A DNA stretch of 64,000 nt from Neelides folsomi (Eukaryota > Arthropoda > Collembola > Neelipleona > Neelidae), in NCBI GenBank assembly GCA_034687125.1, contig JAQGBZ010000103.1, positions 124,001-188,000 on the forward strand. Reading direction: 5' to 3'. Position 1 is the first letter of the stretch, and every line of letters starts with the position of its first letter. Made by a program: the position numbers and the translations under genes. The notes beneath the pieces were generated by a model, which made no database searches, had not been told where the DNA came from, and worked only from the letters and a program-made list of their open reading frames with translations. This document shows positions 1 through 47,985 of this stretch, one piece after another.

Positions 1-3000
1 TTGATGAAATTGAGGAATTGAATAAAACCATGGTCGTGGCTTTGAATAATATTCATAAAAATATGGACAAACTTTCTGGACCAAGAGACCTTTCAGATAT
101 TCACGATGCAATAGTTATTTCAACAAATGGGGATTTAAAAGCAGATGAAGCGTTGACAAGCGTTGAGGAAATTTTAGAAAAATTGCCTAAGAGCCACGAA
201 GATGCGCGCAAATTGCCAGTTACAATTAAAGACCTCAATAAAGGCTTGGCAATTTCTGAGACACAACTAAAACAAGCGAAGGAAGCTGTGCCATTCTCAG
301 CAGCCATTACTGGGAATCTCGAATCGAAAAAACCAAAATATGACAATTTGAAATCACAAATCTCGGATAAGATGTCAGACCTTAAAGCTAAAATTGCATC
401 TGCGAGAGAACAAGCAAATCGAATTCCTGTTGGAATGAACTTGCAAGAATCTTCATCGCTTCTTATGGCAAATCCTACGAGCCTGGAATCCCAACAGGCA
501 CAAACTAAAGTGGCACTCCATTTCAAAACACAGGAACCTTCTGGGCTTTTACTCTTTTTGGGAAATGAGCCTGGACGAAAGAGTGAAGATGATTTTATGG
601 CTCTTGAAATAGACGGTGGTTATCCGGTCCTTACGATTGATTTGGGCTCAGGGCCACAGAAAGTTTACAGTGACCAATTTGTTGCGGATGATAAATGGTA
701 CAAAGCGACGATCGACAGATCGGGGAAAATGGTCCGATTGACTGTTGCACAAGATTTCCAGAATGGGTCCATTGTTGAAAGCACCAAAGAGGAATATTTA
801 TCTGGACCTAAATCATTATTGAATGTGAATCAAAACGCGTCTAAAATTTATGTCGGCGGATATCCTGAAGAAGAAACGCGCCCCAATTTAGTGAGATCTA
901 CAACTTACCGTGGGGCCATTGAAGGACTGGAAATTGGAGATGAAAAAGTTGGACTGTGGAATTTCAAACAAGGAGAAAATCTGGCTCCTGCAATGGAAAA
1001 GTAATTTATTATAATTCTACTTTAATTTTAATGCAGACAGCTTTAACCTCTCTCTTTTATTATCCTTGGCTTTAACGAAACATGTTGCAACTGTAACTTA
1101 CTAATATATTATTAATTTAATTTTTATTATTTTAATTTATATTTTTTTCATGGTCGATGTATTAAAAATTATTATTAAAAAATATATTTTCTGTCTGTAT
1201 CAGTCTGTATTCATTTTAATTTAACAATGAATTTATTTATTGTTTTACAGGGATATTTTCTTGGATTCAAAGACAGAGTCAGGATTGAGATTCCAAGGGA
1301 GTGGTTATGCCGTAATGGACAGAAATAACATCCCATTCAAAACTCGTTCCAACGTCCGGTTGAAATTCCTCACAAGAGCCAAAAACGGTCTCATCTTCTT
1401 AGTGGGAATGGGACGGAAATTCATGTCGCTTGAAATCATAAATGGAATGGTCATTTATCAATATAATCTCGGCGGTGGTCCTGTAAGGGAATCTTCTCGA
1501 AGGGCCTTCAATGATGGCAAATGGCATCAAGTAGAAGCTGTAAGAGAAAAGAGATACGGAGTTTTGAGGATTGACGGAGAAGAAGTTGCTCGAATGGAAA
1601 GTCCCGAACCGCATTCGTTATTAGCAGTTTCCAATTACATGTATTTCGGAGGATATCCCGGAAATCATGATTATCAAACTGTGACCAATAAGGGATTCGA
1701 GGGATGTATTGACAAAGTGTTGGTTGACAATGTTCCAATTGAGTTGACTCAAGCTGCAGAAGCTCGTTATACCGTTCTTGGATGTCCGGCTTCTTTTGGC
1801 CCAACTGTGGCAACTTTCACTGGGAGTGGTTTTATTAAAGTGAAATCGGAAGATTCTCCAACAAGTGGTAATTTGACAAAAAATTTGATGCAAAAAAATA
1901 ATAATACACAATATTGCAAATCTAAAATTTCCAATCATTTAATTTAAATAATATTAAAATAATGAATATTGTCTTGAAATTGATAGTTTTTATATTTGCT
2001 GCTTTGGATATTATTGAATATTGCATTGTGATAAAAGGTCAAATTTTTATAAATTTTATTTATTTAAAGGTCCGGTCATCTCATATAAAGAAGATTCTTT
2101 CGAACTTGGTTTCCGGTTCAAACGGAATGGAACTCACGGTCTTCTATTTTACGGAGCAAATAAGGATCAATCTAATTTCCTCTCTGTGTCTTTGGCTGAA
2201 GGCTCTCTTTACATTAAAACTGAACCAGGAAGCGCTCAAATAAAAACGGATTCGTTTAGCGATAGTGAATGGCATGTTGTGACAGTTTCGCGTGACAGGA
2301 CAAAACTCTCTGTGAACATTGACGATATGAATGAATACTCGTAAGTCTCTATTAAACATTTATTATTATTATTTTGGATAAATGAAGAAAGCTGTTGATT
2401 TAATATCAGCATAATTATTTTATTTAAACAATTTAATAAAAATTTGATTGATTTCTTATTAAATTTTGATTTTTTAACTTTTTACAGAGAACATGCAACA
2501 GGTGGAATATTAACATTGACATCTCCAGGCTCAATGATTTTCTTCGGAGGGCGACCAGACGATTATGAAATGCGTGAAGGAGCAACAATTGCAGATTCGG
2601 CTTTTACTGGCTGTATGGGTGACATTACAATCAATGGGAAACGGGTCGACTTTGAAGAAGCCGAAATCCGGGGGTCAACTTTGGCCCAAAGTTGTTCAAC
2701 TTCACAGGAAGTTCTCGAAAGTGAAAGTCCCAAGCATCGGAACGGATTTGCAATTCCCCAGAAAGAAGGAGACGATGAAGATGAAATAAGTAGGTTGATT
2801 ACAACAACAACGAAAAGACCAACCACTACTGAATCTGATTTAATTCCAATGCCGGATGTAGACGAAGATGAAGACAATGAATTTGACAGTGAAGAAGATA
2901 AAAAGTTAACTCCACCTGAGCCAACTCCAACGCCATTCATGGGCTGTAAACTTCCGTTCCGAGATCCTCCAGCAGAAAATCAAATTGTGAACCTCGAAGA

Positions 3001-4368
3001 TGGAATTCGGTTTGGTAATTATGAGAAAACATCTCGGATGGAATTCAAACAACCGCAAGCTGACGAAGACATGAAGCGAACCGAATATTCAATTGAATTC
3101 AAAACCAACGAACCTGATGGAATTATTTTCATGTGGACTCATTTCGATAAAATCGACTTTGTTGGACTTTTCATGAAGAAAGGACGCGTTCATTTTGCAT
3201 ATGATTCTGGTTCTGGTCCAACTGTATTGAATTCAACGACTTTGCTCAATGACTCCATTTGGCACACTGCAAGTTTCTCCAGGTTTTTGAAACAAGGTGA
3301 ATTGAGCATTGATGGAGTTGTCGTTGCGACTGGAACTTCCCCTGGTAGTACGAATAGCATCAATGCCGGAAATACAATTTATGTCGGCGGACTTCCGAGA
3401 GACGTTTGGGTGAAGAAAACAACTTTGAGGAAAATCCAAAATGTTGATTCGCCATTCAGGGGATGTTTGAGGAATTTTATGATGAAGAAACAAATTCAAA
3501 TGCCGAGTTTTATATCACCTTCGTTGGAACCTTGCACTGATGATGTTGAACCTGGTTATTCATTTTACCCAAATTCTGGATTCCTCAAATTGAGTAAGTA
3601 TCAATTTAATAAATATAAATTAGGTATATTTAATTATTTAACTGTAATTATTAATTTTCTGAAATTATCTTTTAAGATGGGTTAACTATAATATTTTAAA
3701 TGATAAATGAGATTTAAAGAATAATTTTCACAATAAAGAATTAATTCATAATCAATTTAATTTTGTTTTTAAGCTGACAAATTCAAAGTTGGGCGAAAGA
3801 TCAAATTATCTCTCTCCATTAAACCTCGACATCCCTCCGGCATCATTTTGTCCGTTCATGGAGAAAAAGACTTTATGATTCTTCAACTTGTGAATGGAAC
3901 ATTGAAATTCACTGTTGACAATGGGAAAGGACCTTTGTCGAGCAGCTTCACCAAAGATATTTACGACCTATGCGACGGGAACTGGCACACTATTCAAGGT
4001 GCACATTATCTTAATTAATTAATAATTAGCAATTAAAAATATTTTGCAAATTGTCTAATTTGAAATTGGATTTTCTATTTCCTGGTTTGGTCCAAGTGTC
4101 CAAGTCGAAGAACGTCGTGACCCTCGCTTTGGACAACACGTTTTCATCTCCCGGGATCGGAGTTGCCGGACCTGATCAGACCAACACGAACCACCCGCTT
4201 TACCTTGGGGGGCATCCGAAGCCAAGGGAAGTCCGAGGGTTTGAGACCTATGACCAATTTGTGGGCTGCATGAAGGACTTGCAATTTGAAAACCTCAAAG
4301 TTCCGCTCAAGTTTACTCATGAAGGGATCCAAGGGAAAGTTGGACTCCACTCCTGTCCAATCAATTAA
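1..4368 (+). CDS. Laminin subunit alpha, C-terminal part (five LamG domains), 5' end outside window
   Basis: The basement-membrane laminin alpha chain ends in five LamG domains that bind cell-surface receptors. Exons read as <3-1000, 1251-1867, 2070-2340, 2488-3593, 3774-3998 and 4097-4368, all with GT-AG ends and matching phases. The first exon opens with the end of the coiled-coil region (heptad-like, Lys/Glu rich) and then LG1; LG2 starts at 1251; LG3 spans exons 2-4; a Thr/Asp/Glu-rich linker (about 2790-2930, TTTTKRPTTTE) separates LG3 from LG4, as in laminin alpha chains; LG5 ends in the last exon. Typical LamG pieces such as WH(Q/T/V), (F/Y)xGG(Y/R/L/H)P and GC(M/I/L) recur in each domain. 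The stop is at 4366-4368. I cannot tell whether it belongs to the alpha1/2 or alpha3/5 class from this part. Laminin family is near certain. Confidence 0.93.
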
Positions 4369-11403: not shown

Positions 11404-12703
11404 TGCTCTGGATTTGGACATGGCGCTTATTTAATTTTTCTCTTATGAATATCTCTTGTGTTTTCGATGTGCCGGCCCTTGTGTTTGTGGATGAGTCTTC
11501 TTCTCCAAGCATCATAGACTCGATTGATCCTTTCCCTGTCAATAGATGCCCAAATCTTTTTTAATTTTGAAAAGATTCCATCCAAACTCGCACGAGTTAC
11601 CCACAACTTTTGTTTGAGGAAACCTAAGCCAAAGAAGTCCATTGGAGACGCATCTGGAGACTTTTTTGGAACTTCTTCCATAGGAATTATTGTAATTCCT
11701 AATCTTCTCTTGAGGTCTTGGGCGTAGGCGATGGCCGTTTTCTTCGAAGTGTGGGCGGGAGCGTGGTCGTGGTGAACCACGACCTTCTTGATGTCTTTCC
11801 CATACAATTTCACAATTGCTTTTCCAAGAGGCCGCAATACATTTTGTACGTAAAATTCAGAATTGACCTTCGTTTTGGGGGGTACCCTTAAAAGAGGAAG
11901 AACTCCTCGGCCAGAAATTGCTCCCACCACCATGAACTCCTTTTTAAAGTTCTCCTTGCTGACGGTCTATGTGTCGGAGATTCGGACACCAATTGGGCAA
12001 TAGCAGATCTTCTTTTTTCCATTCCCGCAATCTTCCACACTCACCATAGCCTCATCAAGGGTCACGACAAACTATTCTTTTTTCCCAATGAGATATTTGA
12101 CGTTGAATTTCTTGCATGTCTCCTTCCTGAAAAATAAAACTTCATTTTTCTTGCTTTCTCTTATTTCTCAAAAATGTTACCTGTTTTTAATATGCGCATC
12201 TTTCAATTCATGAGTCTTCTGTTTTCTTCTAATAATCTTGTTTATTTCCTTTTAATCAACCGACTGACCCAAGATTGGTAGTTTCTTTGCCATTTCATTA
12301 TTCATTGGGGATTCTCCATTGAGGTGAAAAGCCTCAACTTCCTGATTGTTTTCTGGTCAACTTTTCTTGGAGTTTGAACAATTGGTGGAGTAGGCAAGTC
12401 TTGATTTTTTGCCCTTCTTCTAATTCCAACTTGATCTCTTATTCTGACAATTGTGGATCGTGAAATATTATGACCTAACTCTTTGAATTTACTTTAAATT
12501 TTACTTTGAGAAACTTAGATATGCTTTTACCATTCCTTCTAACTCTGGGTTAAGTTTTTTACCCATTTTATTTTAAACTTATCAAAACTTTGGTTCTATT
12601 AATTAAAGGGTATTAAATAAACAAAAGGTCATTTGGCGGTAAAAATTAGCATATTTATGAATATTTATTATTAAGATGTCAGTATGTGTCCAAATCCAGA
12701 GCA
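11404..12703 (-). mobile_element. mariner-type transposon, full length but decayed
   Basis: A 1300-bp element with matching terminal inverted repeats (TGCTCTGGATTTGGACA, 17 identical bases) and flanking TA at 11402-11403 and 12704-12705, as expected for IS630/Tc1/mariner insertion. The length is that of autonomous mariners. It carries one transposase gene on the minus strand, broken in its 5' half, so this copy is probably not self-mobile. Confidence 0.88.
11427..12566 (-). pseudogene. mariner transposase pseudogene
   Basis: The likely start, reading MGKKLNPELEG, lies at 12566. The N-terminal helix-turn-helix region (RSTIVRIRDQVGIRRRAK) is recognisable but crossed by several stops and frame changes between 12540 and 11940. 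From 11933 to 11427 an intact 168-residue frame holds the C-terminal catalytic part: HHDHAPAHTS with the second catalytic Asp, then SPDASPMDFFG with the third. I count 42 residues between these two Asp residues, more than the 34 of classical mariners and close to the DD41D (rosa-like) group. Such enzymes cut and paste DNA between their terminal repeats. This one is inactive by its stops. Confidence 0.85.
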
Positions 12704-16449: not shown

Positions 16450-19400
16450 ATGCCCGATGAAGACATTTTTCTGTTCAATGAGGATCAACGTCAACGTCCT
16501 TACGAAGGGGAGCAAATCGTCTATGACAAAATCGAGAAACGGAGAATTAAAATCCCCCTGTTGATTCGCATCATTTATTGGATTTCCATCCCATGGCAGA
16601 TCATCACCATCATTGCTTCTTTTGCTTCAATTCTCGTCGCCAGTTACATCTTGTTCTTCTCCTACTATGACCGTGTCCTGTGGAAGGTCATACGAATATC
16701 AGATCACCTTTACGCCGTCGACGTCGTTCTAAGACTGTCTGTCGAAATATGGAGACGCGAATCTGGAACTCATTGCAAGATTTTTAAAGTTCAATATACT
16801 TTGGGAGTTTTCCTCATTGACCTCTTCGTCCTGTTTTCTTTCGAGTTCATTGCGGAATTCATTGTTGACATCGAGTCGATCCAATCACTCTCGTTGGTCT
16901 TGTGGTTTCGGATAAACAAAGTTGGGATGTTGTATCGAGCAAAGAAGTTTTTTGGTAAGTTAATTTCAAAATTGCTAAATTCCGAATTAATTATTTTAAC
17001 ATTCTTTTATTTAAACAAAAATACGATTAAAGTAAATAGTAATTGAATCTGTAGTTAGTCCATGAGTACAATGAGTAAAGTTTTTATCAAAAGTTTTATT
17101 TTTTAAAGACGAATTATCTGAGGAATCAGAAAACAAAACAATTTTCGCTATTCGTTACATTGTCTTCTACGTTGTTGTTTTGCATTTCTTTACATGTTGG
17201 ATTTGGACTCTTTGTGGCAACGTAAATTATTAAAATTCATTAGCGCTAATGGCGAGTTTAAAAATAATATATATAATGTCTATAAATATTAAATAATTAA
17301 AATACAGGACTATTTGGATTGGCTTTTATATCGCTCGGCCGCTACAACTGATGAGATGACCTCTAAAGGATGTTGGATGTACGGAAGGGACAAGAAGGTC
17401 ATGTTTTACGAATTGGTCGATAGAATTCCAACTCCTTTTGAGCTTTATGTTTTTACTTTGGAGTTTATCCTGGCAATATTGACTACTGTGGGGTAAATGT
17501 CTAACTATGATATTTAATTTCCCCTTAATTTAAATTTTAAATTTAAAAAACCAATTCTGATCTATTAAGCTTTATCGTGTTTTTCTAATTAGTGACTTAA
17601 ATAAATTTCAGATATGGCGACATTTATCCTATAAATCCAATCGAAATGATTGTAGTTATTTTGATCATGTTGATCGGATCTTTGTGGATTAGCTCTGAGC
17701 TTACAAGCAGTTTGACCAATTTCATTCTTGATTTGGATGTTGCAAGATTCGATCATTTTTTCCGAATGAAAGGAATTTTGAACCATTTGGTATAACGTTG
17801 TTTTATAAATAAATTAAAAACCAAAATATTATCAATTAATAATGATTTTATAACAGTTTTTCTCTTCATTTTTTTATTTAATTTAGAAATCTGTCAAAAG
17901 CCCACCATTTTTCATTAAAAAAGTTGAACAATATTACGTTGCCCTTTGGAATTACCGCGAAGGAGTTTTTGACATGCAATTTAGGAATTTTCCACTTTCC
18001 ATGCAAGAAGAGCTGATGTTCGACATTTGTGAAGAATTTTTATTTAAATCTCCTTTGTTTCGAGGTTTGGATCAATTCTTTTTGCATGCTCTTTCAAGAA
18101 TCGTCCGAGTTGATTTGGTCAATTCCGATATGATCATTTATAAACCTGGAGCTTTCAATCTTCAATTTCGTTATTTGATTCAAGGAGAACTTCATGTTAA
18201 ATCAAAGTTATTCTTAACTTTATTTACTATGCTTTTTTATAATTTTTGTATAATTTTTTTTAGTTTTTACAAATACTTCAATTATTTATATTTACTTTGA
18301 ATATTAATTTAAGGAATTTTTAAAAGGAATAATCCAGATCAGACCGCTTGCATTATGAGAGCAGGATCTTTGATTGGAGAACTCAACTTGCTCTTTTCTA
18401 TCCCTGTGTCAATGCAAGTGGAGACTCACGGGATTTGCCAATTCCTGACAATTCATAAATTCGACTTTATGCAAATTCTCAAACATTTTCCTTTTGTAGC
18501 GGCAACAATTCGATCAAGAATTTTGGTACTATGTATTATCATTTAAAATTAAATTAAATCCTATTGAATTTAGAAATATTATTAATTATTAATTTAATGT
18601 TTATTGGAATAAAGGATCGACGAAATAATTTGCTTCAGAATTATCATTTAGTTGGAAAATCCCCAATTAATTGGATAGAAAAGAATGATCCGAAATTGAA
18701 TAAAATGGACATTGCATTATTTGATTTTCCAACAGTACTTCGAAAGTATATTTTAAAATATTGTGGTTTTTATATCAAAATGGTTTTTGAAAAATAGTAA
18801 GTCATATTTAAATAATTTAACAAAATTTTTCTTAATTGCTTTTTTGTTTGAAGAGGTTCTTATTTAAATCGAACCCATTTAAAAGATGTCATTGATGATT
18901 CTGGAAACTCTTACATAATTGAAATGCCTTGTTTAAACAAGAAATTGAGAAAGGTGTTTAAAATCATTCAATAATAAATAAAAGATAAATCTTTAAAACA
19001 TTATAACAAATTAATATAATAAGTATCCAAATGACATTTTTTATTATACATAGGAATTAAATTCAGCTTATGGATCTGCGGCTATTATGCCAATTTATGG
19101 AAAGGGAAGAACTTGGGTCGGCGCTTGGAATATTTTCATGCTCATTTATTGCCTCGTGATTTCTCTAGCTTTTCCTTATTGTTTTGCCTTTGATGATACG
19201 AAAATTCCCAATCTCGTATGCACAATCATTGAGGACATTGAAATTCTCATAATAATTATCAACATTGTCGATGTTTTCTTGGAAGTTTATCTCGCTACAC
19301 CTGTTTCTGGTATTTGAGCTGAAATAACTAAAAATTGTATTATTATTAAATAAAATATTTTTCCAGGTTTCTACTTCAAAATTAAAGATGGATTTTTGAT

Positions 19401-22400
19401 TAAAGCGAAAGAAAAGATTTTTTGGTTAGATGTTCTTGCTGCGATTCCCTTCGAATTCCTTTCTTGTAAATTTATTTTAAATTCTAATTTAATGTGCTTT
19501 TGATACGTTAAATTTAACGTTAATCTATATTTTTGTCTTGTGCAGTTGTTAAAATTTTGCAAATAACTATTTGGCACACTAATTTGTTCAGAAGTTATGT
19601 AAAGTTTTGGAAGGTTTGTAGATTCAAAATTATTTTAATGCTGATTATTTTTATATGTAATTCCTAAATACAGAATGACTATTGGCTTTATTGGTAGTCA
19701 ATTTAAATTAAATTCTCAACTTTTATTAGGTGAACCGTTATATGAATTATCTTGATACAATTTACCCGCTGAATCTATTTTTCACACGGCTTGTTCGAGC
19801 ATGTCTCTATCTCATCTACAGCATCAATCTTGTAGCAGCCATTTTGTTCTGGATTGTTTGTCCATATGGGTAAAACAACAAATCAAACAAACATTAGAAT
19901 TATGGGAATTTTGGAAATTTCACCGATGTGCTTTTAATTGTCTTTTTCTTTAAGATATTCATTACCATGTTTCAACATGAGTTGGTTTGATTCTCTTTGG
20001 ATCCTCGAATTGCTCAATGCTGATTCTGATTCCCAATATGTGATGCAAACTGCATTGAAAGGGAAAACCCTCATAGAAAATGAACATTTGCAATTGTCCA
20101 TTTGGTTCTCAATGGCCACTTTGTTGTCGGCCGGGTATGGAGATTTTACTCCGCAGCGACTTGAAGAGTTCATTGTTATAATTATGATTATGGGATATGG
20201 ATTTTTCCTCATTGGGACAATTACTTCCGGTTTAACTTCTGCCCTTGCTTGTGATGCAAGGCCAAAGTAAGAATTTTCAATTATAATTTATTTAAAAGTT
20301 TTAAACTTTTTTCAGTGTTAAAATTCAATTAATCGGACTTTTTTAATATTGATGATTTTGGATTTAATAAAATAGATTGATTTTCCAACAAAAACTCTCT
20401 TCAATTATTAAATTCATGGAATATCACGGACTTAGCGAAAATCTCCAAGAACGAATTGTTGAACATTACAAATTGCAACATCAATTAAGAGATCAAGTAA
20501 CGCTTCCAGTGCATCAATTCAATATGATGTATGATGCTCCAAGCTATTTGACTGAGGATTTTCTCTTTATGCTCGTTGAAACACATTTGGAAGGAATTCC
20601 ATTTTTCACAGTTGAGACACGAAACCGTTATCGTTCTATAATGTATTCAGTTATTTAATTCTTAATTTATTTATTTTAAATTTTAGAAAGCGGATCCAAG
20701 ACTTTTGATTAAAATGGCCAAATTGATGCGTCAATTTGCATTGCCGCCGAATATGACGTTTATTAAGTTTGGAGAAGTTCGAAGAAATCTTTATATCATT
20801 ATAAAGGGATCTGTGGCTGTGAGAGTTTAACTTGTTATTTAAATTATACGAGGGCTTATTAAAAGGTTATGGATACATATATTTATTTTCTTTCCTGCTT
20901 GCATTAAAAATCTAGCTACATAATATTTCGATAATAGGTCCTCTAGTCCTCCAAGGAACCAAAAAGACAGAAGATTTTCGTCAATATCTTTAGAACCCTT
21001 TATGATAATCTTATGAAATTTTAACACAAAATCATTTTTGTAGTTATACATTTAATAGATCTTCAATAATTCACAATGATTAACAAAAACACATTTAAAA
21101 AATTCATAATCTAAAAGTACACAATTTAAAATTGCAATTAACCATAAAGACACCACATTATACTTCTATTTTAAATGAACTTAATGCTTAAAATAAACAA
21201 CTAATTATTAGTTGGTCCTCTACCATCGATGAGAACTTCACCAACCATTTGAACAAGAAGACCCCATACATTTTCCATCTGGTTCAAGTCAGGTGAACCA
21301 AGGAAGTAAGTTGATGTTTTGATCTGCTAACCAATTTCTTGTAGCTGCTGAGACATGTGGATGAGCATTATTCTGTTGGTAAATGAGGTCCACACCGTCC
21401 ATAACTTCACGAAATTGTAAGAAATTTGTCTCCAAGATGTTTGTGTATTCGGTAGAGTCAATTTTGGTTGTTGCAATGCCGAGGGAAGCTGTACCATTGA
21501 ATGAAATTCAACCCATACTTTAATCCCGCCACCACCTGAGTGTCGTTTTAAGAAGACTTTCTCAACTTTCCTCAAATCGTGAAAATTCGCGCGGTTTATC
21601 GAAAAAGGTATTACCCGAACTGATCTTTTCGGACAAATTTATCTGCCATTTCGGCTCGGTGATACTTAGGATCACCAAACTTTTTGTGAATTTTCTATAG
21701 CGGACCTATTATCAAAATATTGTGTAGTTAGATTTTTAATGCAAGCAGGAAAGAAAATAAAAACATGTATCCATAACCTTTTAATACGCCCTCGTACGTT
21801 CATCCCATTATCTTTTAAAAGTTTTTATAACGTTTGAATTGTGCAGCTTTACGGGAAAGATGGGGGTCTTGAATCTCTTCTGGAAACAACTGGATTTTTT
21901 GGCATCCGAGATTTGCTTTTCGGAGAACCGAGCAAACATACTGTGAAAACATTGAGCTACTGTCTTTTTTATTCTATTGATTATCCCACCTTTATTAAAG
22001 TTTTTGGGTATGATGATGACATGATGGCTCTTTTACACAATGAGAAGGTTCCTATATTTTTAATTAAGATTTCAAAACTAACAACCATTTAATTGATCAA
22101 CTTAATATGCATTTGTAAATTAGTAATATTTTTAAATTTTTAATATGAATATTAACAGAGGAAAGTTCAAAAATTAGAAGCATCCAAAATCCTTCACGAA
22201 ATGACTCCACTCAAAGAAACAACCAAAGAACACGCAATCGTTCACAATTCTTGGCTTCATTTCCCTCAAGAGGACGACGCTATGATGAACAACTGCACAT
22301 ATGAAGAATTTGAAGATATTCACAGATCAACCAAGTTTTCGAGATTTTTCAAGTAATTACAGTTAAGTTTTTTAAAGTTTATACCAATTATACTAACAAC

Positions 22401-25400
22401 AAGTTTTCAAAATTGTTTGGTTTTTGTTAAACGTTTTTATTATAAATAATCAGATTTTTCCTCATGAGGAAAACAATCCACCCGGCTGGGAAATTCTCTA
22501 AATTCTGGGTTTGTATGATGAACATTATCAGTTTGATGATGCTTGTGACAGTTGCAGTGGAAAATTATTTGATGTGCAATGCCTTCATATTTCGATTCTT
22601 TCAATTTTGCTTTGACTTGCTGCTCTGGATGGACATGTACTTTTTATAATTTTAATTAATTTATTCAGGGATAAAAAATTAAATAACAGTATCATTGTCT
22701 CCCCTTATTATCATTAGTAATCCTTTTAATTTTGCCTGATTTTATGATTAACTAATTTTCAGTTATGTGAAAATGCACTGGTCTTATTTTGGCCCAAATA
22801 ACAACTTGATCTCACATCCTATCAAAACAGCCCGAATGTATATTTTCAACGGGTCGTTTATTTACGACGTCGCTTTCACAACTCCCTTTGAACTCGTTTT
22901 TGTCTTTTTGGGCTATACGAATATTCTCGGCCATGGCAAAGGGGCCATTTGGTTCCAAAAGTTCAGAATCAACCGAATGTTGCATGTTTACAAAATTCCT
23001 GGGATCTTCAATGTGATCAGAAACGTTTATAAAAATCGAATTTATTTACTGTGAGATTAAATATTTTTAATTGTCTATTCGGTTTATGAGCCATTAGCTT
23101 ATTCCCATTAGCCATGTATGACGAATTTTTAAAAAATTTCAGATGTGCAATTTACTTTTTGATGGCAGTTTGCTTTATAACTGTTCTTGGTTCAGTTGCC
23201 ATTCACGTAGCTTGTCCAATGTTTCCTAAAGTTTGGGAGGACGGGGACGAAAATCGTTTACCGGCTTGTCCACTTGAGTCTTGGGCTCTCAAAGAAGCGG
23301 AATATTGTATGATTTAGCAATCTTCAAAATTAATTGGATAAATTGTAAAAAAATATTAATCATATTATTGTGATCTTTGCAGCTTACAGCCCTGAAACAA
23401 TATTTGAGCGTTGGATTGCTGGTTGTTATTACGTCACTCAGGCCATTCTTGTTATTGGATATGGCGATCTGGTCAATATTGAGGACATTGGTTTTCTCAC
23501 TTGTGTCACCTCCCTTGGTAAAATTAACTTAAACCTTAATTTAAATTTAAATTTTCTGCAAAATCTTCAGATTTGAAGCGAAAATTGTATCTATTGCAAT
23601 TTTAAGCTAACATTTTCTATTTACTACTTTATTATATTTAATTTCAAAGGATTTTTGGCTATAATGAGTTTCATTGCTGACATGACGGCGGCCCAAGTGG
23701 ACAATGATGAAATTCGAGCGGTTTTCATTGAAAGAAGGAGATGTTTACTTGATGTTATGAAAAAATCAAAATTTCATTCCAAAATGACCTAGTAAAATTA
23801 AAAAATTAAATTCCCATTTTCAAAAGTATAAATATTTATCTTACTTATATATATTTCATTTTAAAATTTAACGTCAAATTAAATAAAATGAACTTCATTT
23901 CAATGTGTTTATTTAATAGTGCTGTGTTAGAACAATTGGACTCAACTTGGCATTTGACTCGAGGTCTTCAACCAAAACAACTTTTTGAAGAACTTCACGC
24001 TGCGCTTGAATCAGACTTATTTCAAGAACTTGTTGGGAATGGATTAAAAAACGTAAACTTATGATTTTCCTATTACTTTTATATTTATTTAATTAACAAT
24101 TTTAATTAATCATTTAAACAAAATCAATACATTTAATTAGAATATTTTGTAATTTGTTTTTTGTTATATCCAGATTCCATTATTTGAAGATTTCAGTGAT
24201 ACTGTGATGCGAACGCTCTGCTGCGTTCTACGAAAGGAATTTTTCCAACAAGGACGTCGTTTAAGCCGATTCAGAAACATGGAAGATGAAATGTTCATTA
24301 TTGCTCAAGGAATTGTTTACATTTGTGATGAAGATGATAAATGGCGTTGGACGCTTGGAGAGGGAGAGTAAGAGAAAGCAGAAATGAACTAAATAAATGT
24401 AGTTGAATTTAGTTTAATATATATTTATTTTATTATTAATAATTATAATTTTTGGCCAGTTATTTTGGAGAGGTTTCAATGCTTTACGGAATTCCTCGGA
24501 GACATTCAGCCATTGCGGGTTCATATTGTGAAGTTTATGTGTTAAACTCTGAACATTTCTCTTACTTGCTCGAGTTGTATCCGAAAGTCCGAAACGAAAT
24601 CATTGCTTTTCTCCAAGGTCCTCGAACTGAGAATTTTGAAGGGGACATTTTGGCTGCCGTAATGGAAAATGTAATTGAATATAACAAGAAAAAAGCAGAG
24701 TTGACGATCGAAATCTCTCAAATGATTTCAGTAAGAGAAATTAAAATTTACAAATCTCCTCACACTTTTGGAATAATTGAACATGTTGAGAAATCGTATT
24801 GGAAATCTCGAATCATGGATTCTGGAGTTAACGACATTAATCTTCCATTCATTTACTTTGCAACGGAGTAATAAACACAATTATTTTATAAAATAAAGAT
24901 CCGTTCAAAACTAATTACTAACTGAGAGTTTTACAATTAATTAATAATTAAATTATTTTTTGTGTTTTAGTAAAGAATCGTATTTCAAATTCCTTCTTCA
25001 TCCGAATTGTGCCGGAATGAATTTGCTCATGAACATCATTTTAGTGTCGCGATTTTTGTATCCGATCATTGCACTCTACGAATTCTTCTTTATCGGTGTA
25101 ACTGCTTTGTCTAATTTGCAAGTTGAAATGAAAGTGACGAGCACTGTGAGGGAACTGTCGGTTTACCTCCATTATGTTTTGTATTTCAACATTTTCCTAA
25201 ATCTCATCACACCGAATGAAATTCATGGAGGAGCTTATTGCAAAGTGTTTTTCAAAATTTGTCTCAAGTATTCAAAATTCATCCATTTTGAGAAAATTCA
25301 ACAAATTCAACTTTCTTGGATTTCCAATTAATTTTACTTGATAATTTTTTAATTGAATTAATCCATTGTTTGATATTTAAAAGCTACTTGACGGATCCGA

Positions 25401-27346
25401 AGAAATTTTTATTGGATTTGATTGTAACATTTCCCTTTGAGCAATTTTTTGATTACCACCGATGGTTTTTACTTCGACGGCTTCTTACTCTTGTAAAATT
25501 AATTTTTCCTTTAAATTATGAAATTAAATTAACATCAATTACAATTGCAAGAACTGTTAGAAAAAAACTTAACTGATTATTAAATTTACTTATTTGATTA
25601 ATTAATTAATTATTAAATAATTAATTTGGATTTAAAATCACTAGCCGTACTTCTATGCAACTTTAATATCGAGGAAGGACGATTTGGAAGTGAGCACTTT
25701 TCGATACAAAGTTCAAATCTCTGGGACAATTTTCTTTCTATTTGGACATCTCTTCGCTTGTCTCTTTTACTACATTCCTTGTCATGATCCTTGGCAATGT
25801 GACATAACAAATGAGGATCGTCGAAATGATTCTTGGGTTTATTATGGTAAAGTTTAAAACATAACAGTGGCATTATGACACTTTAGTTTTTATCATCCAA
25901 CTAATGAATGTTCCATTAGCGCCATGTGTTTGAAAGTAGCATTAACTGTGTTTTTACTATTTTTCTCTTTTTAGTGTCTTCTGGGATGGAAAATGATCCA
26001 GAGAGTTTACTTCCTGGTGTTTGGTATCTTCGTTCTCTCTATTGGGTTGTCACCTGTCTCACTACGACTGGATTTGGAGATATTATTCCACTTTCAACGT
26101 CTGAGAAACTCTTGGCTATTTTGTGTATGCTATTTGGCGGTTTTGGACTTTCCATCATTTTGGGCAACATCCTCTCTGGGCTCGCGTCTTTCTCAAAATC
26201 TCATCGAGAATTTTTCTATGAAGTCAAAATCCAACTGGTATGATCCAAACTTAAAAATTCATAAACATACGCAATTTGTTAATTACGTCGAATAGAATAG
26301 CAATAATGTAAATATTGGAATCTTCAATAAGTCATAATCAATGCCGATTACAATTTTTATTTTTTCGAATTTGTAATATTCTATTTACATGTAAATGTAT
26401 ATATCCTGGTTGATTTGCTTATGGTTTGAAGTAAATCATAAATCTTTTATTTCCTTATATTACCAAGGATTAATGTATTTTTATATACTCGAAAAAAATA
26501 AAAATTGTAATCGGAATTGATCATGACTTATTGAAGATTTCATTATTTGTATAAATACAAATTAATTTTTATTTCTTATTTTTATTTTAAATCCATGTAG
26601 AGGCATTTGACTGGAATTGGCTTATCAAAAGATCGTCAAGATCTGATGTTATCTCATTACATCAACTTGTGGAAACGTGTTAGAGGAATTCCATATCACG
26701 AAGCCACTTCTCTTTTACCATTATCATTGCGATTTGACGTCAATCTTGTGATTTTCGGATTTACTATCAAAAGAGTAAGTTTCATTCAAAACTAAATAAT
26801 TAGTGATTTAAATTCTTAATTGTTATATTATTAAATAGAAAAGTGATCGACAATATCGAATTTAATATTTTTATTGGTATGCTGATTTGATAGTGCAAGT
26901 TCTTTTCTCCTGCACATCACGATACATTTATGAGGAATATTTGTGCACATCTCAAACATGCTCTTTACGTTCCTGGAGTGAACATCGTGAGCCATTCAGA
27001 ACAAGGCGGAAATTTATTCATTGTGTTCAAAGGCGAAGTCATCGCGTATGGTTTCAATTCCGAAGGGAAAGAAGTTTACAAGAGGAAATACAAAGAAGGA
27101 CAGGCGTTTGGAAAAGTGCCGGCTCTTTTTCCAGACATTGGATATACGAAAACATACAGGGCGGAAAACAACGTGGAGGTTTTGTACATTGGACATGATG
27201 CCATTAAAAAGGTTTGTAGGCATTTCCCGGCATGGCGACATCATCTCAAGAAATACATTTACATTAAATATGCTCATTTGGCAAAACTCCATGCAAATAT
27301 CTTCAACGAGGAAATTAAAAAGAAGAAAGTGAGGAAAAGCATTTAA
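16450..27346 (+). CDS. CNGK: CNGK-type channel: four tandem K+-channel/cNBD repeats in one polypeptide
   Basis: About 31 exons give close to 2190 residues. Four repeats each have S1-S6, a pore loop, a C-linker and a cyclic-nucleotide-binding domain (cNBD). Pore filters are TVGYGD (split by an intron at 17492/17612, near residue 268), SAGYGD (about 20137, residue ~836), VIGYGD (about 23457, ~1380) and TTGFGD (about 26077, ~1926), so K+ selectivity is expected. cNBDs lie at roughly 18020-18525, 20687-22047, 24174-24650 and 26894-27270. In repeat 3 the phosphate-binding cassette reads YFGEVSMLYGIPRR, keeping Glu and Arg; repeats 1, 2 and 4 lack the Arg, and 2 and 4 also lack the Glu. This single-chain pseudo-tetramer matches the CNGK (tetraKCNG) family known from sea-urchin and fish sperm, where cGMP opens it. 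I chose ATG 16450 because 16442 meets a stop at once. One junction (exon 7/8, near 18765-18856) is unclear. Two transposon-derived elements sit in introns. Confidence 0.9.
20849..21796 (-). mobile_element. Deleted Tc1-like transposon in a CNGK intron
   Basis: A 948-bp insertion within the intron 20819-21846. Long terminal inverted repeats (about 90 bp or more, starting CGAGGGC and containing AAAAGGTTATGGATACAT) are flanked by TA at 20847-20848 and 21797-21798. On the minus strand the centre holds a broken transposase remnant: a SGGGGIKVWVEFHS segment, then QQNNAHPHVSAATRNW, then DLNQMENVWG, which resembles the DD34E catalytic part of Tc1 enzymes. The first catalytic region and N-terminus are missing, and frames shift. 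It is non-autonomous. Confidence 0.85.
26319..26539. repeat. Foldback MITE in the penultimate-but-one CNGK intron
   Basis: About 50-bp arms (26320-26368 and 26489-26538) are inverted copies with few differences, beginning ATCTTCAATAAGTCAT and including CCGATTACAATTTTTATTTT. They surround about 120 bp of AT-rich DNA with no coding capacity, in the intron 26238-26600. Confidence 0.72.
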
Positions 27347-27756: not shown

Positions 27757-30233
27757 TTAAGTCGACCTTTTGGCTCGTTCTCGCTCGGTGAAACATTCGC
27801 AGTCGAGTTCGCAAACAGGGCAACCTTGACATCTCGGAGCGTCGCACAAATCGCTGCTTTCATTGTCAGAATTCCCACATTTGTTGTCTTTCTTGCACAC
27901 GTCGTCCAAAACAGAGCTGCAATCTCTCTGAGTTTCATTTGCATTGCAATCATTAAATGTAAAAGCAGGACAGCCGAAATCAATCTTTTGTTCAACGTAA
28001 TTGTTGCATTCTTCAACGGTGATTGGAATCAATGGTGGTTGATAGCATTCTTGAACTGCGGGTTGTTGGGTTTGTGAACAATCGCCAACTTTGACCGGAG
28101 CTGATGGTTCGGATAAGAAAACGCTTGAAAACCAACTTTTGCAAGATTCTTCTGGTGGCGGAGCACATTTGGGTTCTTCTGCACATTGTTGTGCTTGTTG
28201 CGGTTTGTTGCATTCATTCTGGTTGGAACAATCTGATTGATGAGAGAAATCATAATCGTCTTGACATCCAGTCCGTGTGTTACAATTGTCATTTTCTTCT
28301 CTGTATCCTTCACATGTGCATTTAGAATCTTCTGCATCAATTGCACTTTGACTTGTTGAAGGTCTCACTCGGAGACCTTCAATGCCGCAGACACCGCTTA
28401 AGGAATTGTCACATTGATTTCCAGCTAAGTTGAGCTCAGCTTGGATCCGGGCAAGCTTTTTGAAAGCGTGTGTGAGAACCATCATGAGCTCATTTTCTGA
28501 AAGAGTTCTGGGACAATCGCAAATTCCAATCAAAGCTTCCTTTTCGGCCTTTTCAAATTAATTAAATCAATTAATTAAATCAATTAAAAATTCAACTTAT
28601 AATAATAATACGGGTTTTATTCATCAAAATATATTAGCATTAAAATAATTTGAGATTTGATGAACAAAGGTAACAAAGAGATCATGTCCTTTCTGATTTA
28701 AAGGTAATTAATATGACTCCAAGATTTAAGACATTATATTTAAGAAACTTAAGGTACATAAATATAAAGGAAAAGTAACTAAAATATTAATTAAAGTAAT
28801 TGGTATTAATGTATTAAAGTATTAAAGTAATTATTAAAGTATTAATTAATGTATCTTTTCAATAATATGTCAAACTAAACTAGTAATTTTGAATTAATAC
28901 AATTTTAAACAAAAAATATGAAAAAAACATTAATGAATTTAATTAATAATCACCTTTAAATCCCTTCTGAATCCTTCCAAAAGATTCCTATATTGCTCCA
29001 CAAGTCTTGACTCTTGCATGACACATTCAAGATGAGCTTTACCAGAAGTGAGTTCGTATTCGGCACAGCAAAGCGTTTCTTCGGCGATTTTGAGCAACGG
29101 GTTACTGCAGGTGTATTTGCATCGCTTCCCCCGCTCAATCACTTCCCTCAATTGGCACAAATGTTCCCAAGCTTCTTGAACTTTCGGAGCCGCTTTTTGA
29201 TACTACAAAATTCAATAAATTTATTATGCCTTATGCCTTTTATGTACTATCTAATCTAATTTATCTAATATATTTAATAAATTGGATTTATAATATTTAT
29301 TAATTCAACTTATTGAAAGATTTAATAGATTTTGTGTTTTATACCAAAATACATCGTTTTCCACAATATTCTTGCACTGTACACCAAGAAGCTTCAAATT
29401 CCGGCGACTTTGTTTCAAAATCCTCAGCTGCACAATTGACAGCCTCCATGAAGATCTTCGTAATGTCCACGACGTCACAAACTGTGGTAAGGGCCAATTG
29501 GCTGCTGCACATTGCCTTTTTCTTAATGTCCATGAGAGCTTTTTCCAATTCCGCGTTGGCTTTTCTGATCGTTTCGTCCTCCTTGTCCATTGACATCATA
29601 CACAAGCTTTCCATCGTCCCCAAATTGGATTCTTCACACGTGGCGAAGAAATTGGTAAAAGCGGAAAGTTCCTTCCGCATCTTGGAAAATTTTTCAGAAG
29701 ACAGAGCTTTGATCTCTTTGAAATTGAATCCGATCGCCCCACTTTCATTCAAAGCGTATAAAGCTAGCGACTAAAAAATCATCAATTTAAATAAATTGTA
29801 ATGATTTATTGGAAGTAGTTAAAAACAATAAGTTTATCAAATAATACAAAACAGTGTGTTTATAATGTTTTTAATTAATTAATTTAATTGGAGTAATTTG
29901 ATTAATTAAGTAATTAAAAATTAATTGTAATTACGCCAATTGCTGTATAACCGATCCAAGGAAGCGTCTGTTTTGGAGTAAACCCAAGGAACGTTTTCTT
30001 TGATGACCAATTGCTCATTCCTTTTGTACATTGTGGCTGAAAAAGACAATTTTAATTACGCTTAATGTATAATCATTGCGTGTATTTAATAATGTGGATT
30101 TGAATTGGATCATCATTTGTACGATTGTTGAATTTTATGATTATTTTTTATTTACATTTCTTTCCAAATTCCGGAGCAAAGATGTGGTTTGTCCAATTGA
30201 GTTTCTTGTGATCTTTGACAACAGCCCGGACAT
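27757..30233 (-). CDS. Unrecognised 548-residue protein with Cys-rich C-terminal half
   Basis: Five exons (30233-30156, 30036-29935, 29770-29345, 29202-28954, 28548-27757) are all joined in phase 0. The protein begins MSGLLSKITRNSIGQ with no signal peptide. The middle (about residues 61-285) is helical and charged, with paired Cys (MCSSQ, TVCDVV, VNCAAE, EYCGKRC, TLCCAEYE) spread through helices. The last 264 residues turn acidic and Cys/Asn/Gln-rich, with many short spacings (CDCPR, CTCEGY, CQGCPVCELDCECF), and end ERERAKRST. I know no family with this plan. The Cys clusters could bind metal or form disulfides; the lack of a signal peptide argues for the former or for a structural, sperm-type role, which is speculation. 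Its head faces the 65-residue gene. Confidence 0.72.
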
Positions 30234-35842: not shown

Positions 35843-38180
35843 ATGCCAGGGCTGATGAGACAAATTTATGCCAGCGCTGTTGGTAATTAACAAACATTCA
35901 AACTCCCCATTATTCAATCTTTCATTGATTGATTGTTCCAAGTTGGCAATAATGGAACATTAAGGAAAATCTTGAATTTTTCAATCTTTATTTTCTTAAT
36001 GATCCTTCTTTGCTAATGGTCGATAAATGGCCAATAAGATAATGGAACAATTTTACTATATGTAACATAAACTTTTTGACTTTCCTTGAACTTTTAATAT
36101 TTCAGCATTTGAACAATTTAAATATTGTACAGTAAAAATTAAATCCTTCAATTGTTTATTCTGCTGTTTTAAACTGATATTTTTCTTCCATAATTTTTAT
36201 TATTATATAATTAATTAAAAATTTATTAATTGAGTTTAAAATTTTAAAATATTTTGTTTGCAGCGTCGCTGGGGATTTTCGGTCTTGGGTTGACTTTGGG
36301 TTGGACGGCAGAAACTTTGGAAGTCATTAAGAAAGATTTTGAACTTGACCAAAATGAGAAGTCCTGGGTGGCTTCAATTGCAATGGTAAACAATACATAA
36401 TTTCGTCGTCTGGATGGTTTCTATTTAAAAAATTATCGTATTAATTATAAATGGTTAATAATTATTTAGCTTGGCGCACTGGTGGCTTCTCCAATTTCTG
36501 GTTGGAGCGTTGATCGGTTTGGTCGAAAATTTACTCTCATGTTCTTTGCTCTTCCCAATATACTCGGATGGGTCATTTTACATTCGGCCACCTCCGTTTT
36601 CATGCTTTATGCTGGAAGATTCATTACAGGTAAAGTGTCAGTTTAATTCAATATCCCAATTTCTACAATTCCTCTTCGCCATTAAAAATTAATAAATGAA
36701 GAATTGCCAAGCTTGAATTATGACTTTTTGAAATGTGACCAGTGACCATTAATCACGGGTTCATTAAGCTATTGACAATAATGAGTCAAAGAGATATGTG
36801 AGTTTTAAGATAAATGCGTTTAACATTTAATGAGTTATGGTCAAGTAATTAACAATTTTACACTCATTTTAGGATTTTGCGGAGGAGTTTATTCACTAGT
36901 GACGCCCATTTACATTTGCGAAACGACTGAGGATCACATCAGAGGAATTTTAAATTCAGGCTACCAAATCATGCTCAATTTTGGTCTTTTATTTGTGTAA
37001 GTTTCAATATTTTAATTTCAAATAATTTTAAATTCAAATTCAACAAAAACAATATTTGCAACATTTCTTGCAAGGACCAACACAGCAAGAAGAGAGCAAA
37101 CTAAAATAATTAAAGATTAAATCAAATATGTAATTATATTTTATTTATTTCAGCTACGTATTGGGAGCATATCTCGATTGGAAACTTCTCTCCCTCATCT
37201 GCACATTCTGCCCAACTGCCATTTTCATCTTGACCATTTCCCTCCCCGATTCACCTCGCTATCTTCTCAACAAAGGAAAAGAGGAAAAAGCCCTCAATGC
37301 TCTCATTTGGCTCCGTGGCGGAACTTCCAATCCAGCAATTGAATTGGAAATGTCCGAGATCCGAACTTCTCTTCAAGAAAATATCAAAAGGGCCCAGAAT
37401 AAGGAATCTCTCAAACTCAAAGATTTCACTTCCATCATCATCCTCAAACCCGTGGCCATTTCCGTTGGTCTCATGATCTTCGAAGCCTTTTCCGGCTTCA
37501 CCGCCGTTACCTTCTTCACAGTCCAAATCTTCAATGCTGCAGGGCAAACTAAGGACTCCGATCTTTACACAATAATCGTAGGCGTGGTCGGACTCGCTTC
37601 AGCTTTCGCTTCAGCCATTTTAGTTGACAAAATCGGACGAAGGGTTTTGCTATTAACGAATCAATTCCTCATGGCCGTTTCGCTCCTCGGTCTTGGGACT
37701 TTTTTCTATTTACTTGAACTAAAAATGACCAAAGGATTGGGATTAATTCCTTTGATATCTCTTGGGTTGTTTATCATTGCCTTTAATGTGGGAGTAGGCC
37801 CGTTGTCTACGACCATGATGGGAGAAATTATCCCGCAGAAGGTCAAGGGATTCATGACGGCTGTGTCAACGGCCAACTTATGGTTTTTGTCCTTCGTTGT
37901 TACGAATGTATTCGAACGATGGGAACATTTAATTGGGAATGATATTTGTTTCTGGTTCTTTTCTGGAACTTGCATGGTTGGATTTGTTGTCATTTACCTT
38001 TGGGTTCCGGAGACGAAGGGAAAGAGCTTGGAGGAAATCCAATTGTATTTTGCAAAGAAACCCAAGATAGGAACGGAAGTTGTGGCGGAGAAGGGCGAAG
38101 GGACTTATACCCCAACAGAGGAACCAAGTGTGATAATTCAGAAAAGCCCTCCTTCATATGCTGAAGTCAATGAAGCTTAA
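35843..38180 (+). CDS. MFS sugar transporter (facilitated trehalose transporter Tret1-like, SLC2 family)
   Basis: Twelve-helix plasma-membrane carrier for sugars, most like arthropod Tret1. Exons 35843-35882, 36264-36385, 36470-36629, 36873-36996 and 37154-38180 join in phase to 490 residues, a normal length. Sugar-porter landmarks are WSVDRFGRKFT after helix 2, the GRFITG and ICETTED region, SPRYLLNKGKEEKA after helix 6, VDKIGRRVLL after helix 8, GEIIPQKVKG after helix 10 and WVPETKGKSLEEI at the end of helix 12. The C-terminal tail (about 40 residues) is polar with Pro/Glu. Substrate is inferred from family similarity; trehalose is the likely but not proven cargo. Confidence 0.93.
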
Positions 38181-46704: not shown

Positions 46705-47985
46705 TTATTTTTCAGTTGAGGAAACTCCATTTCCATTTTCCGAATGCCCATTTTCCACATCAGGGCATTGTTTCTTCATCGGGGGTTGTTCAGTTGTTGG
46801 AGCGGGCATTTCCTCCTTCTTCCTCTTCTTCACCAGGTGAGAAATGTCATTGGCCGGTGGGAGCGGAGCTTTAATTGGGCTTTTCAATTTTTCTTCCTCC
46901 TTCGCTTCCTCCACAGCATTCCGATTAAACTCAGCCTTCGCCTCTTTCGTCTCCATGACCTTTTCCTCCAGTTCAGGAATGAGGGTCCTGAGTTCCTCGC
47001 TCTCTTCGCTTCCAGCCTTTTCAAGTCGCTTCGTGATGATGTCCATGCTTTTTTCAAAAGCCCCAATCGCCGCATCGAATTTCTTCGCACTGGCCAAAGT
47101 CAGCCCAAGATGGAAATGAATTTGGGCCACTTCCCTGCTCTCCTCCTCACTTCCCAATTCGGCCAAGGTTCCTAAAGCAATTTCATATTCTTCGACCGCC
47201 GTAGAGTAATTCTCAGACTCCGTAGCAATTTCTCCTAAGACCAAATGAGTATCGGCGAGTTTTCGAAGGATCGTGTCTTTTTCTCCTTTATCAGTCGTGT
47301 CTTCCAATTGGCGCATGTAGGACACTTTTGCTACTTCAAGAGCTTCCCATGCGAGTTCCAAATCACTGAGTTCTTCCTCGACTTCTGCCTTTACGCCGGT
47401 GCTTGTTGAAGGCACTTCGTCATCAACTGTAATACGAGACGGCCCTGGTTGTTCGTCCGCAACTGTGGAAGCAATTTCTGCTTCAGAGGACGAAGGTTGT
47501 TCTGCAGGACTTGCTTCGTTTAAATCTGCTTCAGGATCCTCTTCGGGATCTTCTTCAGTCTCGGGGTCCTCTCCTTCTTCGCTGCTTTTATTCTCCTTGT
47601 CCTCGTCTTTCTGATCGGATCCTTCCGGTTCCGGCTCTTCCTCTTCCGACTCTTCGGCTACGTCTTGGGCCGCTGGAGTTTCGAACATGTTGAGGTCGAG
47701 ACGAGATTGCTCGAGCAAGGCTTTCCCGTAGTAATAATGAGACTCGGCGGAATCCATGCAAAAGGTTCCCTTTGACTCGGTGAAGAGTTTGCAAGCTTCG
47801 CCGAGGGCAGCCGCCGCGAGGGCGATTTCCTTCAAGAGGAGATTCCGCTTCCCTTGTTTTAAACAGTTGGCTGCTGTCTTTTCCATTTCCTCCATCGAGT
47901 CGGCGGGCAAATCCGTAGTGGTTGGTTCGGCCATTTTTCCTTCCTGCCCATAACATAGAGCATTTCGAGCCTCTCTCAATGACAT
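46705..47985 (-). CDS. NASP: NASP-family histone chaperone
   Basis: Nuclear chaperone for free H3/H4 or H1. A single open frame of 426 codons from ATG 47985; a second ATG at 47934 (MAEPTTT) has a better context and follows an AG (TATGGGCAG), so the first 17 residues may be leader or intron. TPR1 lies near residues 33-95 (NCLKQGKRNLLLKEIALA, HYYYGKALLEQ). A very acidic insert of about 90 residues interrupts TPR2, the hallmark of NASP. Then come DLELAWEALEVAKV, LADTHLVLGEIATESENY and IHFHLGLTLASAKKFDAA repeats, a charged coiled coil, and basic nuclear signals (VKKRKKEEM, MKKQCPD). It has no coding introns, unlike its neighbours. Confidence 0.93.
   Translation of the reverse strand: MSLREARNALCYGQEGKMAEPTTTDLPADSMEEMEKTAANCLKQGKRNLLLKEIALAAAALGEACKLFTESKGTFCMDSAESHYYYGKALLEQSRLDLNMFETPAAQDVAEESEEEEPEPEGSDQKDEDKENKSSEEGEDPETEEDPEEDPEADLNEASPAEQPSSSEAEIASTVADEQPGPSRITVDDEVPSTSTGVKAEVEEELSDLELAWEALEVAKVSYMRQLEDTTDKGEKDTILRKLADTHLVLGEIATESENYSTAVEEYEIALGTLAELGSEEESREVAQIHFHLGLTLASAKKFDAAIGAFEKSMDIITKRLEKAGSEESEELRTLIPELEEKVMETKEAKAEFNRNAVEEAKEEEKLKSPIKAPLPPANDISHLVKKRKKEEMPAPTTEQPPMKKQCPDVENGHSENGNGVSSTEK

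Follow-up and report, generated by a model that had tools for sequence, protein, structure and literature searches.

Potassium channels that join four channel units, each with a messenger-binding domain, in one protein have been found in sperm of sea urchins, sea squirts and fish. In the passages of the literature on which we rely here, the CNGK channel of sea urchins is described as opened by a single molecule of cyclic GMP (cGMP) acting at the third of its repeats (PMC4749565, PMC3481119), and the tetraKCNG of Ciona as testis-specific among the Ciona tissues examined (PMC8835908). The range reported for CNGK covers primarily marine invertebrates, freshwater fish, coelacanths and a choanoflagellate (PMC4749565), and two further papers give the same range in outline (PMC6259924 and PMC7576140); the legend to Figure 1 of PMC4749565, which names 11 CNGK sequences, includes no arthropod. 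In the literature we searched (open-licence papers, as titles, starts of abstracts and passages) no arthropod CNGK was found named, and unnamed arthropod entries may well exist in sequence databases. Here we describe gene A, located in a 64,000-nucleotide stretch of DNA (the window) from the collembolan Neelides folsomi (assembly GCA_034687125.1, contig JAQGBZ010000103.1, positions 124,001 to 188,000 of the forward strand), which most likely encodes a K+-selective CNGK-type channel, a pseudotetramer gated through its third repeat, and which is accompanied by two paralogs in the same genome.

In a spliced model built from the sequence, gene A extends from 16450 to 27346 of the window on the plus strand, with 31 exons joined across 30 GT-AG introns into a single open frame that begins with an ATG at 16450, ends with a stop codon at 27344-27346 and has no in-frame stop across 2170 codons. 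A previous sequence-only reading of this DNA had proposed four channel repeats, each with its own GYG/GFG filter and cyclic nucleotide-binding domain (CNBD), in one spliced frame of about 2190 residues, and the model bears this out with the length slightly adjusted: the predicted protein has 2170 residues when exon 20 starts at the acceptor at 23143, and 2185 with the acceptor at 23098, the latter being the version on which domain scans, BLAST comparisons and trees were run. The filters read GYGD, GYGD, GYGD and GFGD in repeats 1 to 4, so that the predicted single-chain architecture carries a K+-type filter in every repeat, and in repeat 3 a Val occupies the filter position that is Thr in most K+ channels. 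Of the Pfam models, both cNMP_binding and Ion_trans_2 (cut-offs 27.5 and 22.5 bits) matched all four repeats, the former above its cut-off in repeats 2, 3 and 4 (35.7, 45.5 and 33.3 bits) and the latter in repeats 1, 2 and 4 (28.6, 26.2 and 40.2 bits), while Ion_trans, the six-transmembrane (6TM) model, matched repeat 4 only (37 bits). An NCBIfam scan of repeat 2 returned nothing useful. Hydropathy, scanned in a crude way, showed 25 peaks, distributed as 8, 5, 7 and 5 per repeat rather than as a clean six each, which roughly fit about 24 transmembrane segments. When compared with each other, the four repeats are about 20% identical with best BLAST E-values of 1e-7 to 1e-13, and are therefore true repeats and not a chance likeness.

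Splice sites of gene A were selected for keeping the reading frame open and for their rank under a generic splice score, except that at three of the 30 junctions (5, 14 and 16) the first pick of the script was overridden by hand, and the donors chosen there (18206, 20610 and 22047) are weak. The start of exon 20 was moved from 23098 to 23143, a strong acceptor, because of the comparison with the paralog that we call gene B, which lengthens intron 19 from 47 to 92 nucleotides; a second change suggested by that comparison, at 23471/23607, was not adopted. Introns are short, 27 of the 30 spanning 57-154 nucleotides, and the exceptions measure 47 (92 after revision), 363 and 1028 nucleotides.

Genes B and C, which were not part of the sequence-only reading, nor was the pattern of a binding motif intact in repeat 3 only, emerged from a search space of 75.1 Mb in 840 contigs, in which the cNMP_binding profile found 21 matches on 14 contigs. 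Gene B (C268:48485-62500, minus strand) is a second four-repeat gene with K+-type filters throughout (GYGD, GFGD, GFGD and, in repeat 4, GFGE). Unspliced tblastn hits to its repeats 1, 2, 3 and 4 lie in colinear order, a result that does not depend on modelling guided by gene A, and spliced alignment of the gene A protein yielded a complete chain with a score of 2871, compared to 52-98 on unrelated DNA or other strands and 128-150 for six shuffles. Eight internal exons have identical sizes in the two genes (178, 235, 132, 183, 288, 133, 194 and 174 nucleotides), and the linkers between repeats are also kept (IIEMPC; NLPFIYFA...LLHPNC). The first two and last two mini-exons of gene B were judged spurious and trimmed before the repeats were compared. 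A Pfam scan covering three of the eight repeats of genes B and C placed the cNMP_binding matches of repeats 1, 3 and 4 of gene B above the cut-off (55.8, 51.4 and 48.3 bits), with pore models passing for repeats 1 and 4 and none reported for repeat 3. When the gene B protein was spliced back onto the window, the donors of gene A were recovered at 29 of 30 junctions and its acceptors at 28 of 30; this check is only partly independent, as gene B had itself been modelled with gene A as template. These data bear on the possibility that what reads as one chain is a decayed copy or belongs to at least two distinct genes. Such a view could draw on the fact that the single chain is a model in which three weak donors were imposed by hand, and that a transposon lies within intron 15; we consider it highly improbable in the face of 2170 codons free of in-frame stops, of a paralog that shares chain, linkers and exon sizes, and of the recovered splice sites.

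Gene C appears to be split between two contigs, C300 (spliced-alignment score 437) and C815 (score 551). It exits the end of C300 inside repeat 3 and continues on C815, and because the facing contig ends share the same short tandem repeat, we took the two parts as pieces of a single gene that the assembly has interrupted, apparently again with four repeats. Its filters read GYGD, GFGD, GYGD and GNST, hence K+-type in three of four, with GNST in repeat 4. A search of the genome with the whole gene A protein gave matches only at C103, C268 and C815 (46 at E up to 1), C300 being too diverged for detection in this way.

Comparison among the three genes matches the repeats largely by position. A same-numbered repeat was the top BLAST match in 23 of 24 directed comparisons, although use of the gene A protein as a guide in modelling genes B and C may slightly favour such matches. 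Between genes A and B all eight directed comparisons put the same number first, at 295, 278, 304 and 263 bits for repeats 1 to 4 (range 263-304) against at most 71 bits for any other pair; the corresponding values were 82, 90, 117 and 131 bits between A and C, and 96, 77, 99 and 94 bits between B and C, so that the position-by-position match is clear for gene B and weaker for gene C. In a tree that combined the twelve repeats with SthK, a bacterial channel, and with HCN and CNG from the same genome, repeats 2, 3 and 4 each formed one branch (support 91/92, 95/94 and 93/96), and repeat 1 of gene A joined repeat 1 of gene B (100/100). A second tree under LG+G4 agreed with the first (repeat 2, 85%; repeat 3, 95%; repeat 4, 92%; HCN with CNG, 67%), its deep branches having 31-44%. 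The four-repeat chain predates the split between genes A and B, and, given the same-number matching and the branches of repeats 2, 3 and 4, it is probably older than the duplications altogether, including the split from gene C, and hence old in this lineage.

The same trees address whether gene A could be a tandem array of HCN, CNG or EAG-type channels rather than a CNGK, a grouping that the sequence-only reading had named, for HCN and EAG, as one that would count against its proposal. The genome's own HCN paired with its own CNG (84/78), with SthK added to them at 71/82, and neither paired with any repeat, which with moderate support places HCN and CNG outside the repeat groups in a tree set that was assembled without EAG. 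Repeats 3 and 4, the two run against solved structures, do show a weak similarity to all of these families, which speaks for such an origin. Their scores, however, are flat over families and reach no more than about 90 bits, with SthK as the best match (repeat 4 about 90 bits, repeat 3 about 82) and eukaryotic families lower; against solved HCN structures repeat 3 scored at most about 52 bits and repeat 4 about 26, whereas the genome's own HCN scored 472 bits against HCN4. The filters of gene A differ from the CIGYG of HCN type, which was not found among them, and the pore of the genome's own CNG reads SIGKNPKPE rather than GYG. A tandem array of this sort is, in our opinion, hardly credible.

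With regard to ligand binding, the cassette of a nucleotide-binding CNBD has a Glu after an FG or similar pair and an Arg nine residues past that Glu. Both residues are present in three of the 12 CNBDs of genes A, B and C, and these are the three third repeats; Glu alone is kept in the first repeats of all three genes and in repeat 4 of gene C. As a control from the same genome, nine of nine examined PKA, PKG, HCN and CNG sites keep both Glu and Arg, compared with none of three RapGEF-type sites; site types were assigned by reading, the HCN string had to be assembled from both sides of an intron, the CNG string was aligned by hand with a two-residue insert, and the cNMP_binding matches on C275, the second site on C362 and the match on C15 were excluded. 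C275 was read as a neuropathy target esterase. Were three intact sites distributed at random among 12, they would fall in one column in 4 of 220 draws, a yardstick to be read knowing that the paralogs are related. Retention of Glu and Arg in repeat 3 of all three genes suggests selection on binding by this repeat. As for which nucleotide would bind, the residue after the repeat-3 Arg is Arg in gene A, Gly in gene B and Ile in gene C, and therefore cGMP cannot be told from cyclic AMP (cAMP) as the ligand; the cGMP-driven signalling put forward by the sequence-only reading thus finds no backing in the residues past the conserved Arg.

From the gene structure, the four repeats, the filters and the motif pattern, all of which stand at the level of sequence, we infer nucleotide binding, coupling, selectivity and cell type along the following lines. 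The four 6TM-CNBD units of the one chain would fold as a pseudotetramer around a single K+-selective pore lined by GYG, GYG, GYG and GFG. A cyclic nucleotide would bind repeat 3, and the ligand-bound repeat would move its own C-linker so that the shared gate opens; K+ would then leave the cell and the membrane would hyperpolarise, with the other three CNBDs, their binding lost, serving as structural or coupling parts. With less weight, such a channel might serve in sperm or another cell that bears a flagellum or cilia. Radial_spoke_3 matches are present in the genome (105 and 82 bits on C25, weaker ones of 31 and 27 bits on C2), so motile axonemes are likely and a sperm role for gene A is possible. 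Eleven Na/H exchanger matches were found, on C242, C267, C22 and C95; none of them lies on the 14 contigs with cNMP_binding matches, so that no sNHE was seen, which is a weak negative. Extending the reading to all three genes, we propose tentatively, and at odds somewhat below even, that the lineage kept a CNGK and tripled it into anciently diverged pseudotetramers, all ruled by the ligand site of repeat 3, with the GNST of gene C making a three-plus-one pore of changed selectivity.

Several points weigh against a CNGK gated through repeat 3, and we set them out together. The single-transcript status of gene A and several of its splice junctions are predicted; its repeat 1 CNBD (22.3 bits) and its repeat 3 pore (18.3 bits) score under the respective Pfam cut-offs; and CATSPERB_C, of the CatSper beta-subunit family, had no match in the genome, in a search run without a positive control. 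Gene C is very diverged. Its repeat 1 finds repeat 3 of gene A (84.7 bits) ahead of repeat 1 (82.0 bits), is left unplaced in both trees and matches SthK at 118 bits, above all other repeats, while some same-number margins are small (77 versus 75 bits for repeat 2 of gene B in gene C, and 92 versus 90 bits for repeat 4 of gene C in gene B). The pairing published for CNGK, in which repeat 1 is nearest to repeat 3 and repeat 2 to repeat 4 (PMC7576140), was not recovered in either tree, the deep branches of both being unsupported at 31-47%. Finally, the assignment of gene A to CNGK is argued from architecture, because the comparison with known CNGK channels was made by description only. This last point, the identity of only about 20% among repeats, the lack of support for deep branches, and the fact that SthK outscores the same-numbered repeat of gene C for four of the eight repeats of genes A and B would all be compatible with an independent tandem fusion in arthropods, in which case the architecture would be convergent and not orthologous to the CNGK of sea urchins, fish and choanoflagellates. 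We regard such an origin as improbable, in that the number and order of repeats and the K+ filters are those of CNGK, the four-repeat chain is old in the lineage, the intact site falls in repeat 3 as reported for sea urchin (PMC4749565), and inheritance is the simpler explanation because a choanoflagellate, a sponge and an anemone each have a CNGK (PMC4749565).

Other observations touch gating. Repeat 4 of gene C keeps the Glu and has an Arg two residues past the expected place, and a displaced site is possible there. The residues after the repeat-3 Arg in genes A, B and C are unlike the usual cAMP or cGMP signatures. In addition, the CNGK of zebrafish is not gated by nucleotides but by intracellular pH (PMC4749565). 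It is conceivable, then, that gene A encodes a CNGK deaf to cyclic nucleotides, like the zebrafish channel that opens at alkaline pH: three of the four CNBDs in each gene are without Glu, Arg or both, repeat 3 is without the usual residues past Arg, and zebrafish shows that such drift occurs (PMC4749565). The retention of Glu and Arg only in repeat 3 of three paralogs, in spite of their great divergence elsewhere, speaks for the contrary, and we judge a nucleotide-deaf channel unlikely.

The positions of the features of gene A, and of the element inserted in its intron 15, are collected in the table below. Within that element, a transposase-like fragment was identified by eye at 21289-21638 on the minus strand.

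Features of gene A and its intron 15, in coordinates of the window
Feature	Position	Strand	Basis or remark
Repeat 1 with S1-S6, C-linker, CNBD and linker to repeat 2	16450..18953	+	exons 1-8; spliced model, Pfam
Exons 1-8	16450-16954, 17109-17221, 17308-17492, 17612-17789, 17887-18206, 18327-18525, 18615-18745, 18854-18953	+	junction 18206/18327 hand-picked
Repeat 1 selectivity filter TTVGYGD	17482..17621 (17482-17492 + 17612-17621)	+	interrupted by intron 3 (17493-17611)
Repeat 1 phosphate-binding cassette IGELNLLFSIPVSMQV	18373..18420	+	Glu present, Val at Arg position
Repeat 2	19054..22352	+	exons 9-17; spliced model, Pfam
Exons 9-17	19054-19309, 19367-19465, 19546-19613, 19730-19869, 19955-20266, 20376-20610, 20687-20818, 21847-22047, 22159-22352	+	donors 20610 and 22047 hand-picked
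Repeat 2 selectivity filter LSAGYGD	20124..20144	+	spliced model
Tc1/mariner-like element in intron 15, outside channel coding	20847..21796		99-nucleotide terminal inverted repeats, 93% complementary (repeat search)
Repeat 2 phosphate-binding cassette FGIRDLLFGEPSKHTV	21898..21945	+	neither Glu nor Arg
Repeat 3	22454..24867	+	exons 18-25; spliced model, Pfam
Exons 18-25	22454-22636, 22763-23050, 23143-23306, 23383-23517, 23650-23791, 23920-24052, 24174-24367, 24460-24867	+	exon 20 possibly from 23098
Repeat 3 selectivity filter LVIGYGD	23448..23468	+	spliced model
Repeat 3 phosphate-binding cassette FGEVSMLYGIPRRHSA	24464..24511	+	Glu and Arg present; only such repeat in gene A
Linker and repeat 4	24971..27346	+	exons 26-31, stop codon included; spliced model, Pfam
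Exons 26-31	24971-25267, 25384-25492, 25645-25846, 25975-26237, 26601-26774, 26894-27346	+	
Repeat 4 selectivity filter TTTGFGD	26061..26081	+	spliced model
Repeat 4 phosphate-binding cassette FGKVPALFPDIGYTKT	27107..27154	+	neither Glu nor Arg

Around gene A, frames were seen by eye that resemble laminin G domains of a laminin chain (1-3685, plus strand), a mariner transposase fragment (11427-11966, minus strand, 179 residues), a sugar transporter (37134-38180, plus strand) and a NASP-like histone chaperone (46705-47985, minus strand), and a cysteine-rich frame of 266 residues lies just downstream on the opposite strand (27757-28557, minus strand). The arthropod host suspected in the sequence-only reading is confirmed by the genome. 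Chitin_bind_4, the cuticle protein family, has 39 matches in it and none in 14 control genomes, and the mitochondrial gene order is pancrustacean. The 15,157-base mitochondrial contig (C742) carries the only COX1 match of the genome by Pfam, its other genes having been named by reading, and ARAGORN made 22 calls on it, one of them unnamed and none for trnN; cox1 and cox2 have trnL(taa) between them, a position that is a pancrustacean mark and on account of which a mite host was rejected. The COX1 protein resembles that of Collembola, which is a lead only. Three marginal 7tm_6 matches were also noted, and would fit a host without the large odorant-receptor set of insects.

CNGK is already a known kind of channel; new here are the presence of three such genes in one genome and the pattern of a motif kept whole only in repeat 3. 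A complete copy in an arthropod, with two paralogs, would bring the family into the largest phylum of animals and suggests a long history of the four-repeat chain among arthropods, whose tractable sperm and sensory systems could be used to probe its role. Three paralogs with the motif intact only in repeat 3 would further serve as a natural mutagenesis series with which to weigh the proposal that one ligand site controls the entire pore.

Placed beside known channels, gene A shares pore, C-linker and CNBD with the HCN and CNG encoded in the same genome (on C152 and C215), which unlike gene A have a single repeat as far as they were read. It shares a GYGD filter and a CNBD with K+-selective CNG channels of bacteria, namely SthK and its relatives, SthK being the top match of repeats 3 and 4 among solved structures; SthK has a single repeat and is a true homotetramer. 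The tetraKCNG of Ciona resembles gene A in having four KCNG domains in one chain of about 271 kDa (PMC8835908). Zebrafish CNGK (DrCNGK) is similar to gene A in architecture and filter types; it carries a 42-residue insert in the C-linker of repeat 3 and an Ala in place of Arg in repeat 2 (PMC4749565), and by alignment repeat 3 of gene A shows no insert of this type. Gene A also resembles the sea-urchin sperm CNGK/tetraKCNG (ApCNGK and SpCNGK), a single chain in which each of four 6TM-CNBD repeats has a GYG or GFG filter and the functional ligand site is reported in repeat 3 (PMC4749565, PMC3481119), the only repeat of gene A with an intact motif. The residues beside the repeat-3 Arg of gene A depart from the usual cGMP signatures. 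Gene A also differs from its sea-urchin counterparts in belonging to an arthropod, and in being one of three paralogous genes in one genome.

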